Shown here: piece by piece, positions 2,598 through 22,287 of the stretch
How positions within the stretch are numbered: position 1 is the first letter of the stretch
Layout: each line of letters starts with the position of its first letter
Notes under the pieces: generated by a model
What the model saw: only the letters and a program-made list of their open reading frames with translations
What the model was told of the DNA's origin: nothing
Databases searched by the model: none
Made by a program: the position numbers and the translations under genes
Origin: a virus
Length of the DNA: 22,823 nt
Direction: 5' to 3' (one strand)
Virus record (IMG/VR): IMGVR_UViG_3300033150_002146
Location: 1 to 22,823 of that record

Positions 2598-2604
2598 ATT
2601 ATTG

Positions 2605-3489
2605 ATGAAAGTATTGATTTTGGATAGTGATTCAACATTTACGACTCAATTGGAGTATTTTTTAAAGAAAAGCTTGAGTTTTGATTGTTGTTCATGTCAT
2701 TCCATTGCTGAGTTTCGCCAAGTAAGTAAGAAGTTTAAACCCGATGTCTACCTTATAGATGTCATTTTAGCTAATGGCCAAATTTTTTCAATTTTAGATG
2801 AATTAGACCCATCTCGTTCAATTATAATTACGAATTATGTTACTGATCGCTTAAGTTCCACCGTTTCTTCGTTAGGTTTTTATAGTATTTTGGTTAAACC
2901 AATTAATTTTGAGGTTTTAAGAGGTATGTTAGAAGCATTAAAGCTTAAAATTAAATCCCCAGCGTCACCTCTCGTTACTCGTTTGATTTCAACGTTCCCT
3001 CAAGTATTTAAGCTTTTTAATGGGGTAATTGATGCGAATGCTATTCAAGAAGGAGTTGAAATAATTGGTAAGCACTTAAACGCTAATATTGTTGTAGCGC
3101 CATTTGATGAGGTACAAGGTCTTAGTTACCCTTTATTTGCATTTTACTTAACTGAAAGATTAGAACTCCAGATTCAAAAATTTCCTTCAAGTTGGATTGA
3201 ATCGGTTAAAAGTGGAGAGGTTGTTGTAATTTTTAAAGATCCGCGAATTCAGGAGCTGTTCGGAAAAGAAATTAACCGCGTGTTAATTGCACCCATTTCA
3301 AATGAGGTATTGGGAAATTGGGGTTACTTTTTAACGTTTGATGGACGAAAGACGCCTTATTCGTCCGAAGTTGTTACATTTATACATAGTTGTGTTGTTG
3401 TAGTTGGGCTCGCTTTAGTTAGATTGAATTTAGGTCTTACTTTGAAGTCGGTTTTGGAGGATGCAATTACACGTGTTAAGGTTACTTAA
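2605..3489 (+). CDS. Response-regulator receiver domain protein with C-terminal GAF-like domain
   Basis: Residues 1-115 form a CheY-like receiver domain. The acidic pocket D7/D9, phospho-acceptor D52 at the end of strand 3 (DVYLID), T76 (IIIT) and the K98-P99 pair (VKPI) are all in place, so it looks able to accept phosphate from a histidine kinase. Residues about 125-290 form an alpha/beta domain (IIGKHLNANIVVAPF, then NRVLIAPIS and WGYFLTFD) that resembles a GAF sensor domain. No DNA-binding output domain is visible. I chose ATG 2605; a TTG at 2602 adds one residue, and AAGG at 2591-2594 could serve either. No kinase gene is in the window, so a host kinase or a phage kinase outside the window would be needed. 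Receiver proteins are uncommon in phage accessory cassettes. The REC call is firm and the GAF call is moderate. Confidence 0.75.
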   Translation: MKVLILDSDSTFTTQLEYFLKKSLSFDCCSCHSIAEFRQVSKKFKPDVYLIDVILANGQIFSILDELDPSRSIIITNYVTDRLSSTVSSLGFYSILVKPINFEVLRGMLEALKLKIKSPASPLVTRLISTFPQVFKLFNGVIDANAIQEGVEIIGKHLNANIVVAPFDEVQGLSYPLFAFYLTERLELQIQKFPSSWIESVKSGEVVVIFKDPRIQELFGKEINRVLIAPISNEVLGNWGYFLTFDGRKTPYSSEVVTFIHSCVVVVGLALVRLNLGLTLKSVLEDAITRVKVT

Positions 3490-4686: not shown

Positions 4687-7600
4687 GTGAAAAGGCAATT
4701 AGAAAAAAAGCCAACGAAACCAGTTAAAGAGTCCGCTGTTGGTGAAACTTCGATTTTTACCTCAGTAACAACAGGCTTAACTGGATTTCTAAGTGATCGT
4801 TCGTTAAGGAGCCTTTACAGAGAAACTAGTTCTGTAAGAAGGTGTGTTGATCATATTGCAGAATCTATCGCAAATTTACCCCGTGAGTATAAAGTAGCTT
4901 TACGAGGAAAAAAGGATGAAATAGTTAAGTCACTGTTTGAGCGTGAGACGGTAACAGGTGAGACATTTAGGGACGTGTTGATCGCAGTCTCGATTGATAT
5001 GTTAGTTTTAAACAAAGGTGTTTTAGTACCTTTATTAACTCTGGGTAAGCAACTAACCGGTTTTACAGCTCGCGACGCCGCGACTTTCTACCCCGTTTAT
5101 GAAAAAGATGGGCGGTTACGTGGTTATGTACAACAAACGCAATCAGGTCGGATTTATAAATTTTTACCTTCTGAGGTAATTTTCGTTCGTTTAGTTCCGC
5201 GTACATATTCTTCCAATGGCCTACCTATATTGGAATCACTTACTTATGAGCTTACTAGTTATTTGAAAAATCTAGTTAAAAGTGACCCCGAGTCACGAAA
5301 GCCAATAGGGACGTTTATTTTTACAAATAACATAGATGAAGACGTAATTAATAGATTCCAAGAAGATTTAACAACTTTACTTTCCGGAGATAAGGTTAAA
5401 ATTCCGCTAATTTGGGGTGCAGGAGAAGGAAAATGGGTTGAACTTGCGAAGCAGTTTGATATTCAGATGATTTCTGCCTTTTTGGATAGACTAGATTGGT
5501 TAGTCAGAAGTGCTTTTGGATTCGTACCACCAGGAAGTAACCTTCTTCAAGCATCGCCGGGGGCTGATTTAATGTTTTCAACTTTAGTTCCGCAAGTTGC
5601 TAAGGCAATTGAAGATAAGATGAATCGCTTTCTTGAGCCTTACGGAATATCATTTAGATTCAAAATTCCGCCTGTTCATTCTATAGAGAGGATAATTGAG
5701 GGTACTAAATCTGGATTAATTGCACCTAATGAGGCCCGTCAGTTTATGAATTTACCTCCTTTTGAAGGCGGCAATCAAGTTTCAGTTCTTCAACCTAAAG
5801 GTTTGACACCTGTTGGTTCAACGGAACAGCTTAATTTACCATCGTCAACTCCCGAATCAACAGCGGAACCGATACATAAATCAACTTCAGAGTCAGTGCT
5901 TGAGTCGGTAACTAGGACCGAGCCGAGTCTTCAAAGAGCAGTTTCTTTAGAAGACCTACATTTATTACATAATGCTGAGTTTGCGTTAGATGAAAAACGT
6001 GCGAAGTTTATTATTAATCGTGTAAAGTTGGTTAAGCAATTTCAGGAAGAGTTGAAAAAAGAAGTTGATAAGTTTCGCGAAAAGTTTGAAGAAAAGTCAA
6101 TACTTAGGCAAGAAGCGTCAGTCTTACCACCGTCAACCTCTTTTTTACTTCGTTTAAGTGCTTTGATGGATGATTATCGTACTGATGCTTTTGAATTGGG
6201 CTTTGACCGTGTAAACGATTTTTGGAGACCCTCCGAGTATGATAGAGAACAAGTTAGGAAAATAATAGATGAGTATAGTGATGTAGTGACGAAAGACGCA
6301 ATTAATCGATGGAAGTCGCGAATTGATAAAGCAAATAGCGATGCTAAAAGAGGTAATTGGGACGTTGTTTATGAGGATTTAAACCGGTTGGTTTTATCAG
6401 TTTTAGCTGCGGGCGGACTTGCTGTATTTTTCGCGAATTTACCATTAGTTGTAATTTCGAGATTATTTGAAAAATCACAAGGAATAGTATTACGCTGGGT
6501 TGGAATTGAAGATGATGTTACGTGTAAAGTTTGCGCTGCAATGATTGGAAGAGTATTTAGACCTTCAGTGTTGGAATTACTTCAAACTTGGCCTGGTTAT
6601 GGGACACTTTGTGGTCATAATTGTAGGTGCTCGCTCGAGCCAATTTCTGATGTCTCATTAGCATCTTATAACAAGTGGATTGGTAACAAAATTTCTGTCA
6701 AGGATTTGCAGAAATGGGGAACAGAAGCAGAGGCTATCTTTTCAAACTTACTTAAGGGAATTGACGCTAGGGTTGCGAAAGTTTTGGAGAAGACTCCTCC
6801 TCTTAGGGAGCCAGCTTATTTGGCGTTGTTTAAAGAAGTTAATTTAACTGACGCGAAAAGTCCTCGCTATGACGCAATTAAAAACGTCTTAGAACTACCA
6901 CGTACTTTTTCGGATAGTCAAATACGGGAAGCATTCGTTGACTCCGTCGCAATAAATCTTTTGTATCGATTTGATTTGATGGATCCAAGACAACCTTTTT
7001 CGGCTCAACTTCAATCTCTGCTTTTAAATACTCGAAAGAATTTGTGGGATAAACAATTGAAGAAAATTTTACCTTCCGAGCTTAAAGATGATTGGTTAGC
7101 AGGTAATAAAGAAGCTTTTAAAGGAATTTCCTTTCAGTTATTTGACATTCCTCAAAGTGCTTACTTCGACCCACGCGAATTTTTCATGCAAATGTTTCGC
7201 GCTTCGATTTTTAGTCCGCAGCGATTGGATATTGAGGGAATGACCGCGTTTCGTGAACTTTTAGGATCTACTTTTTGGACTCCAAATACATATGAGAATT
7301 GGTTAAACAGGGTTTATAAGGTGAGACCTATACCTTGGAGATCGACCCGGTCAACAGACCAAATAATATCGGCGATCCCAGTTGTTGATCCTGAGTTTAA
7401 ATCACAATTAACTACAATTTTGCAAAAATATTCTACCCTCAGAGTTCCTTCTTTTTGGAGCGGATTACAAACGATTCGTTTGTCAAATGCTGCGCGATAT
7501 GACGCGACTTATTTATTGGACGTTGATTATAAGGATTTTGTGAAGTCATTTAACGGTGTCATTACAACCACTCCCAACGACTTTCAATTCCTTCATGAGT

Positions 7601-8538
7601 TAGGTCATCATGTGTTTGAAAGACATTTTATTCCATTTTCATATATGAGAGACGCCTTCGCATTGATGTATCGAGACAGAATTTTAGTTCCTTTATATGA
7701 ACAAATATTACCTTATCTTGATGAAAAACAGGCTCAGAAGTTTATGGGTTATATAAATGGTGTACTTAAAGCTTCTGAAGAGCGTTCACTCGGATCTTAC
7801 TTAGTTGCTTCAAGAGATACATTTGAAAAGGAAATATTTGAGCCTTTGGAGGGAGTACTACCACGGGCAATGCAGAATTGGGCCCTTCCAATTCGACCTT
7901 ATGCTTTAAGGAAGATTGATGAAACTTTTGCTGAAATTTTCGCAACATTCTTTGAACGACCTACTGTGTTGTATTTTAGTGATCCTGAGTTGTATGTATT
8001 TATGGAATCCCTACTTCAAAATTTAGCTGTTAGACCCGAGTCACTCATTTCAAAACATCCTTTATGGAGTAGAGTTTATGAAGCTGCTTTACGCGCAGGA
8101 TTTACGCGGAAGCAACTGGATAAGTTACTTCCAAAATTACTTTGGGCACATTATAAGGAGGGTGTTGATCCTGAAGAAATCGTAGAATTGTTCGCAAAAG
8201 CATCTTTAGAAGATGAGAAGGAATTACGTAAGGTGATTAGTAAGAAAATTGATGAGTTGGGTAAAGCACCAGAGAAAAAGAAATTAGCGAGTAAAGAGTC
8301 AAAGCCTAAAATTAAGAAACCTGTAACTGTGCCCAAGAAGATAGTTACTCTGAGAGAAGTTAGTCAGCTGCTTAAAGAGAGGTTAAAGTTAAAGAAAAGT
8401 GAACTCGAAACACTCGTTTCGATAATAGCAGAAGACGTGATTAAAAATAAGAAATCATTAATTGATCTCTATTCAAAACTTGAGTCTATGACTAAAGAGG
8501 AGTTGCAAAAATGGATAAAAGATTTACTGAAGAAATAA
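4687..8538 (+). CDS. Portal / MuF head-morphogenesis / metallopeptidase fusion protein
   Basis: Three modules make up 1283 residues. Residues 1 to about 370 are an HK97-type portal: the segment with PPGSNLL (about 280) and the C-terminal SGLIAPNEARQFMNLPPF are typical. A Ser/Thr/Glu/Pro-rich linker (about 378-412) follows. Residues about 415-665 are a Mu gpF-like head protein with C613-x2-C616 and C642-G-H-N-C646-R-C648. Residues about 690-1165 contain a zinc peptidase-like domain with HELGHH at 970-975 and ETFAEIFATFFE at 1079-1090. The last 110 residues are lysine-rich and probably coiled coil. The portal ring forms the DNA gateway and MuF proteins enter the capsid, so the peptidase could be packaged or ejected (inference). 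GTG start with AAAGGAGGA. Portal proteins are usually 400-550 residues, so the length is exceptional. No frameshift or internal stop is present. Confidence 0.85.
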   Translation: MKRQLEKKPTKPVKESAVGETSIFTSVTTGLTGFLSDRSLRSLYRETSSVRRCVDHIAESIANLPREYKVALRGKKDEIVKSLFERETVTGETFRDVLIAVSIDMLVLNKGVLVPLLTLGKQLTGFTARDAATFYPVYEKDGRLRGYVQQTQSGRIYKFLPSEVIFVRLVPRTYSSNGLPILESLTYELTSYLKNLVKSDPESRKPIGTFIFTNNIDEDVINRFQEDLTTLLSGDKVKIPLIWGAGEGKWVELAKQFDIQMISAFLDRLDWLVRSAFGFVPPGSNLLQASPGADLMFSTLVPQVAKAIEDKMNRFLEPYGISFRFKIPPVHSIERIIEGTKSGLIAPNEARQFMNLPPFEGGNQVSVLQPKGLTPVGSTEQLNLPSSTPESTAEPIHKSTSESVLESVTRTEPSLQRAVSLEDLHLLHNAEFALDEKRAKFIINRVKLVKQFQEELKKEVDKFREKFEEKSILRQEASVLPPSTSFLLRLSALMDDYRTDAFELGFDRVNDFWRPSEYDREQVRKIIDEYSDVVTKDAINRWKSRIDKANSDAKRGNWDVVYEDLNRLVLSVLAAGGLAVFFANLPLVVISRLFEKSQGIVLRWVGIEDDVTCKVCAAMIGRVFRPSVLELLQTWPGYGTLCGHNCRCSLEPISDVSLASYNKWIGNKISVKDLQKWGTEAEAIFSNLLKGIDARVAKVLEKTPPLREPAYLALFKEVNLTDAKSPRYDAIKNVLELPRTFSDSQIREAFVDSVAINLLYRFDLMDPRQPFSAQLQSLLLNTRKNLWDKQLKKILPSELKDDWLAGNKEAFKGISFQLFDIPQSAYFDPREFFMQMFRASIFSPQRLDIEGMTAFRELLGSTFWTPNTYENWLNRVYKVRPIPWRSTRSTDQIISAIPVVDPEFKSQLTTILQKYSTLRVPSFWSGLQTIRLSNAARYDATYLLDVDYKDFVKSFNGVITTTPNDFQFLHELGHHVFERHFIPFSYMRDAFALMYRDRILVPLYEQILPYLDEKQAQKFMGYINGVLKASEERSLGSYLVASRDTFEKEIFEPLEGVLPRAMQNWALPIRPYALRKIDETFAEIFATFFERPTVLYFSDPELYVFMESLLQNLAVRPESLISKHPLWSRVYEAALRAGFTRKQLDKLLPKLLWAHYKEGVDPEEIVELFAKASLEDEKELRKVISKKIDELGKAPEKKKLASKESKPKIKKPVTVPKKIVTLREVSQLLKERLKLKKSELETLVSIIAEDVIKNKKSLIDLYSKLESMTKEELQKWIKDLLKK

Positions 8539-17109: not shown

Positions 17110-19011
17110 ATGTCAAAGATTTCTGCAATAGTTTATACTTCTGAAGATTTGGTTGCAACACTTAATGCTATTTTACCGCTTACCACTTTTAAAATTCCAG
17201 TAGTTGTAGTAGGCCCTCATCACACTGAAGTTTGTCGAGCATTAGGATGCGATGTATATAGTGGTGGGAATACATTTAAGAAATATCTTGTAGCTGGTCT
17301 TCGTAAAGTAAAATCTGATCTATTTCTATTTTTAGATGGACGTTTTTCACTTTCGAATATTGAATTTTTAGATGAGGCTGCGGAATTGTTGAACGTCCCT
17401 GACGTAGGTTTCGTCGTTCCCTCTTTAATTAAGAGCGCCGGCCCTCAAAGTTATAAAAGAAAAGAGAAAGGCCCAATTTCGAAAATTGCACCTTGGTGTT
17501 TTGTGGGAAGAACACAAGAGTCACTGCGTTATTTTGAGAGCGTTACTTCAAAATTTAGTGATGTAAGAGTTGTAATGTATGTAAGTTACTTAATGATGCG
17601 CGAAGGTAAATTTTCTCATGTGATTCCTAAGTATACTCTTGAGCAAGAAGGGGAAGCTAAAGTAGAAAGGATTTTTTCAGATCAAATTAAAGAAAAGCTG
17701 CACCCCGTTTTGTTATTCAGAAGTCATCAAAAGGGCGTTGCTCCTCCATCTGAGATAACTGACTTGTTTGAGAGAGTCGAGGTTTGCTCCCTATTTGACA
17801 TTCCTAAGTTCAAAACCAATGAATTAGTTTTTATTTTGAAGGAGGGTGAATCCTTTGGGCCAAATTTGACAAAATCTTTGATTGACCGACTATGTTATAA
17901 TCCCGATCCATTTGTTTTTGCTTATCAATTTCCTATTTTGAAAACATGGGATAAGAGTCATTTTTTAGTTAATGAAGTGACTTGGGAAGTTAGAGCGTTT
18001 CAGGCATTGGAAAATACTACCGCACGTGTTTTGGTAAATCCATTTTATTTCCAACAATTGCCTTATGAATGTTTAAGAACTACATCAGTTCCTATATTAA
18101 AAGCAATTTCAAATAAACCTGAGACTGGGACAGTCGCGTCTTTAAAACATCCGACTTTAACAATTGCAACAATAATGAAAGATGAAATGAAAAATCTTCC
18201 TACTTATTTAAGCGCAGCATTACCTTTTGCGGCGGAAATCATACTTGTAGATACAGGTTCATCGGATGAATCTAAAGAATTTGCGTTGAAGTATAATTGT
18301 AAGGTAATTGAGGCTGATCTGAATAAAAATTTCTCAGGAGCGCGAAACAGGTATTTAAAAGATGCATCTAGTCAATGGTTATTACATCAAGATTTGGATG
18401 AGATTGTTGATTATAAACAAATTTACTTAATGTTGTTGAAGGTTCCTGTGGTAGTAGACGGTATCCAATTATCGGTACATAACCTGACACCTCAAGAGGG
18501 GACAGTTGTTTTTCAGGACGCTTTACGATTGATTCAGAATCCCAAAACTTGGTTCTATTCAAACAGAGTGCATGAGACACTTGAAAGGTGTGCAACTGAA
18601 TTAGGCAAGCAAATTTTACGTACTTCGGATATTATCATTTATCATTTAGGATTTTTATCTCCAAGGATGAAGGAAAAATTGGCGTTTTATAAAGAACTAA
18701 CAACACTTCAACTTGAAGAGGAACCTGAAAATCCTCTACCCTATTTTAACTTAGCCTTAGATTTGTTAAATGATACGGATGAACATCCCGAAAACTTTGA
18801 CGTAGCGCTTGAACTTTTACACGAGGCAGTTAAATTACAGCCAAGCTTTTCACTTGCACAATACGAGTTATCGAGGATATATTGTACTAAAGCACTATTT
18901 GCGATTGATGAAACTTTAAAGTGGGTTCCGCCCGATCACCCGATGATTAGGTTAATTAAAGCTATTTACAAACCTTTGAAAGAGTATACTGAGAGGTACA
19001 TTATTAAGTGA
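17110..19011 (+). CDS. Two-domain glycosyltransferase with GT2 domain and TPR-like C-terminus
   Basis: Residues about 347-530 are a GT-A fold family 2 transferase: TIATIMKDEMKNLPTYL opens it, VDTGSSDES (381-389) binds nucleotide, and HQDLDE (D428, D430) is the metal-binding DxD. Later, FQDALRLIQNP and NRVHETLE are typical of TPR-linked GT2 proteins. Residues about 540-610 form paired helices like TPR (NPLPYFNLALDLLNDT, then LELLHEAVKLQPSFSLAQYELSRIY). Residues 1-330 hold a second GT-A-like region (AIVYTSEDLVATLNAIL, FLFLDGRFSLS) whose DxD is not clear, perhaps degenerate. It lies between connector genes, so a virion protein target is plausible (inference). RBS TTAGGAGG. Confidence 0.75.
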   Translation: MSKISAIVYTSEDLVATLNAILPLTTFKIPVVVVGPHHTEVCRALGCDVYSGGNTFKKYLVAGLRKVKSDLFLFLDGRFSLSNIEFLDEAAELLNVPDVGFVVPSLIKSAGPQSYKRKEKGPISKIAPWCFVGRTQESLRYFESVTSKFSDVRVVMYVSYLMMREGKFSHVIPKYTLEQEGEAKVERIFSDQIKEKLHPVLLFRSHQKGVAPPSEITDLFERVEVCSLFDIPKFKTNELVFILKEGESFGPNLTKSLIDRLCYNPDPFVFAYQFPILKTWDKSHFLVNEVTWEVRAFQALENTTARVLVNPFYFQQLPYECLRTTSVPILKAISNKPETGTVASLKHPTLTIATIMKDEMKNLPTYLSAALPFAAEIILVDTGSSDESKEFALKYNCKVIEADLNKNFSGARNRYLKDASSQWLLHQDLDEIVDYKQIYLMLLKVPVVVDGIQLSVHNLTPQEGTVVFQDALRLIQNPKTWFYSNRVHETLERCATELGKQILRTSDIIIYHLGFLSPRMKEKLAFYKELTTLQLEEEPENPLPYFNLALDLLNDTDEHPENFDVALELLHEAVKLQPSFSLAQYELSRIYCTKALFAIDETLKWVPPDHPMIRLIKAIYKPLKEYTERYIIK

Positions 19012-20683: not shown

Positions 20684-21850
20684 GTGAATACGCCAACTTA
20701 TAATACCAAGCGCCTGAACTAGCTCGGGCCCCTAACTAGTAATAGTTAGGTGAAAAGCTCGCTTGGTCAGGGAAGCCTAAGTCCAATAGGATATGGTAAC
20801 CCTGAGGGGTTAGATTTGAGAGAATCGAAGCCCTGCAGAGACTTTCTTGGGAGACTTGTTGGTGGAGCTTAACGTAATTTATAAAAGCGAGAAATTTAAA
20901 GTTTTAATAGATGATCGAGATGCGGATCTTGTTACAAAAGGATGTTACATACAGAAAACACGTGAAAAATCTGGATTGTTATATTTACGAGTTTTTGCGT
21001 CTAAGAATGGATTTAAGCGAAGGCATTCTGACATGAGGCTGTTACACATATTAGTTGTTGAAAAAGTGCTTGGACGAAAGTTAAAACCTAATGAGGTAAT
21101 TCATCATATTAATGGTAACCCATTTGATTGTCGAAGGGATAATTTATTGGTCATGAGACAAAGTGAACATGCTAGACTTCATATGGTTATGAGTGTTGAA
21201 TATGCGAAAAATATTTTTCAAAGTCTTTCAAGCGACGAGAAACTTCAGTTATTAGAAAAACTGCTTTCTCGTAAGACGCGAGACATCCGTGGAATTTTTC
21301 AGGTGATTGGACCTGGAAAAGACAATATAATTACGGATGAAGAGATAGTCCACACTCATCGAAAGATTGAGAGTAAGTGACAATTGACGTCGGTGCAGTT
21401 AAAACTGGTGCAGTGTTAACTTTTACTCGTGATAAGTTGGAGGTTAAACAAGGTTCTCCTGAGAGTTTGATCAAGCAATGGGTTATTACTGAAACAGTTA
21501 GACTTGAAGTAGTTGGTCATGAGTGGAATATTGATAATTTGCAATATGCTATTGGAACTGGTATAATTTCAACTAATGGTGATGAAAAGACAATGGATGT
21601 AGGTGGAGATATGGAGGTTAAGGAAGCTTCTCTTAAGTTCGTGCATCAGATGCCGGCTGGTGGTACGGTTGAAGTTGATATTTGGAAAGCGCAATCTGCT
21701 GGCGAGCTGTCTGTTACCTTTGGTGGTGATCCTCATGAGTTTCCCTACACATTTGTTGCGCTGGACGCTAGTACAGATTGGAGTGGTTCTTCATTACCTT
21801 CAGCTGGTAGGTTATGTCGTATTAAGTTAACCGGCGATTTTTCTTCGTAA
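20684..21850 (+). CDS. Major tail tube protein, split gene (exons 20684-20715 and 21394-21850)
   Basis: GTG 20684 follows a strong GGGAGGTG. The frame reads MNTPTYNTKRL and then hits TAG at 20720, inside the proposed intron. Joining U20715 to 21394 restores a frame of 162 codons that continues AVKTGAVLTF. This resembles phage tube proteins that open with a short polar stretch, Thr-Pro-x-Tyr and a Gly-rich strand. Exon 2 is beta-rich (LEVVGHEWNIDNLQYAIGTGI, then ASLKFVHQMPAGGTVEVDIWKA, then YTFVALDAS), as expected for a tube monomer. Position before the G/T chaperones and tape measure agrees. Without splicing only a GTG at 21377 could start exon 2, and it has no good ribosome binding site. The exact 3' junction is inferred from frame and the need for a terminal G. 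Confidence 0.75.
20716..21393 (+). ncRNA. Group I self-splicing intron (probably subgroup IA)
   Basis: Helices visible: P1 GCCUGA (20712-20717) with UCGGGC (20724-20729), having the required U-G wobble at U20715; P2 20731-20738/20743-20750; P3 AAGCUC 20755-20760/GAGCUU 20865-20870; P4 CAGGG 20768-20772/CCCUG 20800-20804; P5 GCC 20775-20777/GGU 20795-20797, flanked by AA on both sides; P5a 20781-20784/20789-20792; P6 AGGG 20805-20808/CCCU 20831-20834; P6a GAUU/AAUC; P7 GACU 20840-20843/AGUC 21347-21350; P8 CGUAAUU 20873-20879/AAUUACG 21329-21335; P9 21355-21360/21365-21371 capped by GAAA. R-like CAGAGACU and S-like GAGAUAGUCC are present. About 20 nt between P7 and P3' fits the P7.1/P7.2 of subgroup IA. 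The 5' site is firm, the 3' site moderate. Confidence 0.88.
20847..21380 (+). CDS. Intron-encoded HNH homing endonuclease
   Basis: Residues about 66-105 hold an HNH core: LLHILVVEKVLG, then VIHHINGNPFDCRRDNLLVM, with the HH pair, the N of HINGN and the closing RRDNL seen in HNH_3-type phage intron enzymes. The N-terminal part (KVLIDDRDADLVTKG...LRVFASKNG) matches the DNA-contact region common before HNH in AP2/HNH-like homing nucleases. It would cut intronless tail tube alleles and so spread the intron. Start is uncertain: TTG 20847, or GTG 20862 with GGGAGA 7 nt upstream. The ORF begins before P3' and P8 and runs past P7', so its first and last residues are encoded by ribozyme core sequence. 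Confidence 0.85.
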   Translation: MGDLLVELNVIYKSEKFKVLIDDRDADLVTKGCYIQKTREKSGLLYLRVFASKNGFKRRHSDMRLLHILVVEKVLGRKLKPNEVIHHINGNPFDCRRDNLLVMRQSEHARLHMVMSVEYAKNIFQSLSSDEKLQLLEKLLSRKTRDIRGIFQVIGPGKDNIITDEEIVHTHRKIESK

Positions 21851-21885: not shown

Positions 21886-22287
21886 ATGTCTGCTTTTGAT
21901 GAATTCATTTCTGGAACTAATGAAATAACTTTAAGTAAGGGAGAGAGGGTTAATGTCCCCCCTCTTACTTGGGGTAAAGAACTCCGCATTTATAATATAA
22001 TCACAAAAATCTTTTCTCGTTTCCCCGCTGGAGATGTTGATGACGATAATTTAAACGTGTCTAGTGAATTAGCTTATACTTTTATGACCAGTTTTGCTAC
22101 AGATATCACAGAGATCGCAGCTTTAGTTTTTGATAAAGATAAGAAATGGGTGGAGTCTAATCTTACATCACAGGATATGGTGGATTTTGTTGTCCCTTTG
22201 TCACTTCACGTCTTCGGGAAGCTCGGGAAGGGTCTGTCCGAAGCGGTAAACAAATTGGCAGAGGAGACGTCAGAGGTGACAGTGTAA
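21886..22287 (+). CDS. Tail assembly chaperone (G-type)
   Basis: ATG 21886 has AGGAGGTG 7 nt upstream; an earlier TTG at 21862 is not needed. The 133-residue acidic protein (LSKGERVNVPPLTWGKELRIYNIITKIFSRF...) has the pattern of siphophage gpG-type chaperones and sits between the tube and the tape measure genes. It coats the tape measure protein during tail assembly. Frame -1 is open from 22161, overlapping the last 127 nt of this gene and running to 22556, so a -1 ribosomal frameshift would yield the longer G-T protein, as in lambda. No classical X-XXY-YYZ heptamer is evident. Confidence 0.75.
   Translation: MSAFDEFISGTNEITLSKGERVNVPPLTWGKELRIYNIITKIFSRFPAGDVDDDNLNVSSELAYTFMTSFATDITEIAALVFDKDKKWVESNLTSQDMVDFVVPLSLHVFGKLGKGLSEAVNKLAEETSEVTV

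Follow-up and report, generated by a model that had tools for sequence, protein, structure and literature searches.

Most group I introns of bacteriophages interrupt genes of nucleotide metabolism, polymerase genes or terminase genes (PMC11878797). The closest described system is orf142 of Staphylococcus phage Twort, which has since been identified as a tail-tube gene (PMC11878797) and is interrupted by three group I introns (I1-I3). A 23-nt exon has been reported for it (PMC10136302), and the exons as reconstructed here, 345+41+23+20=429 nt, fit 142 codons plus stop. In Cluster J mycobacteriophages, too, virion structural genes contain introns for which splicing has been shown (LittleE capsid, BAKA minor tail; PMC3706429); these concern other genes and hosts and are likened to the present case by gene type.

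In this work we analyse positions 1 to 22,823 of the viral record IMGVR_UViG_3300033150_002146; this whole stretch of 22,823 nt is called the window. At 20684-21850 on its + strand a short coding exon is followed by a group I intron that contains an HNH open reading frame (ORF), and then by a long coding exon. An earlier note made from the sequence had claimed that an HNH-carrying group I intron interrupts a tail-tube gene within its first dozen codons, which is borne out by fold, synteny and intron anatomy, and had called such a location unusual, a claim weakened by the three introns of Twort. A tail-tube intron is not new; what is unusual is the damaged allele. After Twort, the window represents a second phage group with group I introns in this gene.

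Our preferred reading, to which we give a probability of about 0.6, is that a mobile, HNH-encoding group I intron of an IA-like subgroup, whose sisters are intron 1 of Twort orf142 and introns of capsid and PolC genes in phages, entered a siphophage-type tail-tube gene within the Leu codon of ...KR-L, between its second and third bases. With guanosine attack at U20715/G20716 and exon joining after G21379, 664 nt would be released. In this contig the downstream exon lacks its first 49 nt, and the tube allele is most likely broken, or at best a truncated tube would be made from unspliced RNA, starting at GTG 21377. The features are as follows.

20684..20715, +: exon 1 of the tail-tube gene, GTG start, VNTPTYNTKR plus CU (homologues L005, L007, L008)
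20716..21379, +: group I intron, 664 nt, 5' end G20716, most likely omega-G G21379 (RF00028, models R1 and R2)
20712-20717/20724-20729, +: P1, GCCU-GA with UCGGGC, hyphen at the 5' splice site; U20715.G20726 pair there, guide 3' of it
20731-20736/20745-20750, +: P2 hairpin, CCUAAC/GUUAGG (pairing, model R2)
20755-20760/20865-20870, +: P3, AAGCUC/GAGCUU, 6/6 pairs, preferred version
20758-20764/20885-20891, +: alternative P3, CUCGCUU/AAGCGAG, 7/7 pairs
20767-20772/20800-20805, +: P4, UCAGGG/CCCUGA (pairing, model R2)
20775-20777/20795-20797, +: P5, GCC/GGU, flanking AA (read from sequence)
20806-20809/20831-20834, +: P6 (pairing)
20838-20843/21347-21351, +: P7, G(A)GACU/AGUCC, bulged A, guanosine site (pairing)
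20873-20879/21329-21335, +: P8 closing helix, CGUAAUU/AAUUACG, 7/7 pairs, enclosing nearly the whole HNH ORF
21355-21371, +: P9 hairpin, GAAA loop (RF00028, pairing, model R1)
20859..21380, +: HNH_3 homing endonuclease ORF (PF13392, E=6e-11; PHROG HNH endonucleases)
21380..21850, +: exon 2 remnant, from TIDVGAVKTG (homologue comparison; frame open from GTG 21377)
21886..22287, +: tail assembly chaperone gene (PHROG 1442), following the tube gene

The group I intron is real. The core helices P1-P9 lie where they had been claimed and all of them pair; the stretch from P7 (20843) to P3, where P7.1/P7.2 of a subgroup IA2 intron would be located, is 21 nt long with the preferred strand (20865) and 41 nt with the alternative P3. 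The proposed search of the region with the Rfam group I model RF00028 (Intron_gpI) matched the two intron halves, 20706-20991 (E=0.001) and 21169-21371 (E=3e-4), on the correct strand and in the correct order. Because the HNH ORF in P8 splits the core, both matches fall below the gathering score, and a Rfam search at that threshold found nothing. The in-frame TAG that had been noticed is present at 20720; its read-through was considered and set aside, as no homologous peptide results (one other gene of the window ends in TAG).

The nearest DNA match found is Twort intron 1, 89% identical over 37 nt of core within the P4-P5 stretch 20767..20805. Both introns start with GAACU, which agrees with a 5' end at 20716, and share the order P1-P2 (AGUAA loop)-P3-P4-P5. 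The Twort introns differ in lying in the 3' part of their gene, in having no ORF of note and in carrying extra sequence after P9; their splicing leaves an intact protein, and Twort is a myophage. Scanning viral contigs with a pattern for the P4-P5 core recovered Twort and added sister introns that interrupt T7-like major capsid genes (L026, L027), PolC genes (L028, L031) and an ATPase gene (L030); these host gene names are our own reading of the ORFs. A first core pattern had given a chance match only, in the GC-rich contig L022. The capsid and PolC introns share with the window the core CAGGGAARCCUAAGUC..UAUGG.AA.CCUG and a short 3' end directly after P9; they differ in host gene, in showing no endonuclease ORF and in having exons that can be joined in frame where checked. 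The two capsid introns, which lack an ORF, lie just before the HTPG motif.

In three of these sister genes the reading frame, as we interpret it, fixes the position of the 3' splice site, shortly behind P9: in the capsid gene of L026 (GAG U-UU CAU ACU CCA, giving E-F-H-T-P, as in E-F-HTPGN), in PolC of L031 (FE-S-SGMKR) and in PolC of L028 (MP-DIDFDTP). Covariance model R1 was built from five sister-intron 3' ends, including these three frame-fixed ones, and model R2 from the 5' parts of the introns of L026, L027 and Twort introns 1-3, the window being excluded from both. The best R1 match in the window is 21335-21379 (E=9e-4, runner-up E=2.6), ending at model position 45, and the sole R2 match is 20716-20844 (E=1e-5), starting at model position 1; these E-values are approximate, and the R1 alignment contains some non-standard P9 pairs. 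The ends thus obtained, 20716 and 21379, make an intron of 664 nt. The 3' splice site is therefore most likely G21379 and not G21393, as judged from the sister introns. The earlier junction at 21393/21394 would be off by 14 nt, and the predicted removal of about 678 nt becomes 664 nt.

Fold and synteny support the identification of the interrupted gene as a tail-tube gene. An AlphaFold model of the L007 protein, of moderate confidence (pLDDT 67) and with predicted strands at residues 5-13 and 16-22, had tail tubes as its top Foldseek matches in the PDB (E 5e-4), and PHROG 2175 and weak major-tail-protein family matches are consistent with this. The order of a Zn-ribbon-like ORF, the tube gene and the tail assembly chaperone gene is conserved in the loci viewed, the tube-chaperone order being shared with L007, L008 and L018. 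Exon 1 is closely preceded by a good ribosome-binding site, AGGGAGGTG, and its peptide and codon phase are shared by L005, L007 and L008. Homologues of the exon 2 protein came from viral contigs and one MAG contig. All complete ones begin with an MNTPTY-like peptide, which a routine annotation of the window would, as foreseen, miss. The only long tube frame that remains starts at GTG 21377, and its product would lack about 28 N-terminal residues present in homologues.

Comparison with intronless homologues, proposed earlier as a means of fixing the junction, gives no support to 21393/21394 and reveals that 49 nt of conserved coding sequence are missing. The homologue N-terminus reads MNTPTYxTKRL-SFGPGVLYIGxxGxTP-TIDIGAVKTG. 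In the window VNTPTYNTKRL precedes the intron and TIDVGAVKTG follows it, and the 49 nt between are absent: the third base of the Leu codon and the equivalent of SFGPGVLYIGxxGxTP, the most conserved N-terminal strand. All six complete intronless homologues (L007, L008, L018-L021) hold SFGPG(V/I)(L/V)Y(I/L/M)G..G.TP between the N-terminal peptide and the (D/E)(I/V)G.V block; L005 carries it after removal of its own intron, and it is retained down to 37% identity. Sought across the whole window, the missing segment gave a best peptide score of 22.7 vs 77.6 for the real one, and within the intron region a best score of 7.7; a micro-exon hidden inside the intron was rejected, since neither DNA pattern nor peptide score gave a match. 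With 49 nt of exon missing, canonical splicing, joining U20715 to A21380 after G21379, gives a frameshifted product that stops after 23 codons. The sequence AGCUC, just 5' of the guide, would pair as P10 with GAGUU, which follows the same site in L005, and no partner for it was found at candidate 3' ends in the window. This pairing suggests that the intron once sat before an intact exon 2.

In related phages a different group I intron interrupts the same gene family. Contigs L002-L006 and the MAG contig L023, together representing two metagenomes and one MAG, carry it between FGP and G (for example L005:111-1296), 13 nt downstream of the window's site. It resembles the window's intron in being a homing-endonuclease group I intron within the first 15 codons of the tube gene; it differs in encoding a LAGLIDADG_2 endonuclease (PF03161, E=8e-12) rather than an HNH protein, in giving no relevant match to Rfam (RF00028) or to model R2, and in leaving a complete tube N-terminus on removal. 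Its P1 is GGGCCU/GGGCCC and its P10 has 4 bp; drawn by hand, P1, P3, P7, P8, P9 and P10 all pair. An insertion of the window's intron at this site, where its guide GGGCCC would also pair over 6 bp with GGGCCU, was considered and rejected, as model R2 and the Twort-like GAACU both point to 20716 as the 5' end. One conserved coding motif is thus used, at sites 13 nt apart, by two unrelated introns whose endonucleases differ.

Against a broken allele it may be said that the other structural genes of the window look intact, unlike those of a decayed phage, and that the 49-nt deletion rests on a single copy of the allele. The first of these points equally favours the strongest competing explanation, that the gap is a sequence artefact, from a chimeric metagenomic contig or wrongly merged variants, and that the real phage has a full exon 2 after G21379. 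The missing segment is near-invariant among homologues, and an ancestral exon beginning GAGYT would give a 5-bp P10 with AGCUC, like the L005 sequence (chance about 0.004, for one site). A false joint in a k-mer assembly, however, needs shared sequence, of which none was seen, and an artefact does not predict a break exactly at the intron end. We consider it a possibility with perhaps a third or so of the weight of the alternatives to it.

How the segment was lost is a separate matter, compatible with our preferred reading. Recombination between two related introns, one at KRL and one between TP and TID, would have deleted the small exon between them and would explain a loss that starts exactly at the intron end, equivalent, at the level of DNA, to exon skipping in Twort orf142. 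The three introns of that gene, with exons of 41 and 23 nt, and the second intron type located 13 nt away in the L005-type phages speak for such an origin; however, no intron between TP and TID was found among the homologues, and from one sequence a chimera is indistinguishable from a simple deletion. We regard it as unlikely.

Somewhat less probable still is a tube made in frame, by cleavage after G20716 or because one base is missing from the contig, giving KRL-TIDVGAVKTG with an in-frame loss of 16 codons. The 20716/21379 joint is indeed open for 167 codons. A group I intron normally uses the U of its U.G pair as donor, however, here U20715, and the 16 residues lost are the most conserved N-terminal part.

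We give a slightly smaller chance to the tube gene having escaped the intron: the adjoining exon would have been lost, perhaps by recombination of tandem introns, and a shortened tube would be translated from unspliced RNA through coupling between the HNH stop and the GTG start, whose codons overlap as GTGA at 21377-21380 (TGA stop, GTG 21377). A broken gene is preferred over both such a truncated start and a contig error since homologues down to 37% identity retain the lost block, in which the model places a strand (residues 16-22).

The claimed joining of U20715 to T21394, which would give a functional 162-codon tube MNTPTYNTKRL-AVKTGAVLTF, is the least credible: the frame is open, and with this donor no G of 21372-21400 other than G21393 keeps it so, but R1 ends at G21379, there is no P10 with the exon TGCAG, and the product drops 21 residues, including a predicted strand, that complete homologues keep. 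The choice of G21393 is made by frame only, a practice that can mask a missing exon segment.

The ribozyme itself would be expected to fold and to splice, and homing would presumably be promoted by the HNH protein. The HNH ORF is open from TTG 20847, with a likely start at TTG 20859 or GTG 20862, after GGGAG. The PF13392 match scores 42.3 bits against a cut-off of 24.8, and the HNH_3 motif, EVIHHINGNPFDCRRDNL, is intact. As had been claimed, the ORF lies mainly within P8, which spans 20873-21335. A scan of viral contigs with the HNH protein found no relative.

Several other genes of the window were observed in passing. A 1283-aa portal-like protein (4687-8538) has HELGH in its C-terminal part and a weak, below-cut-off match to M90 peptidases, and a small ORF at 13-630 carries a zincin-type HEVGH motif, its family match being likewise weak and below cut-off. 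Near the phage head genes, 2602-3489 encodes a response-regulator receiver-like domain just under the Pfam cut-off, and 17110-19011, inside the head-tail connector gene block, encodes a protein of 633 aa that has a glycosyltransferase family 2 domain.
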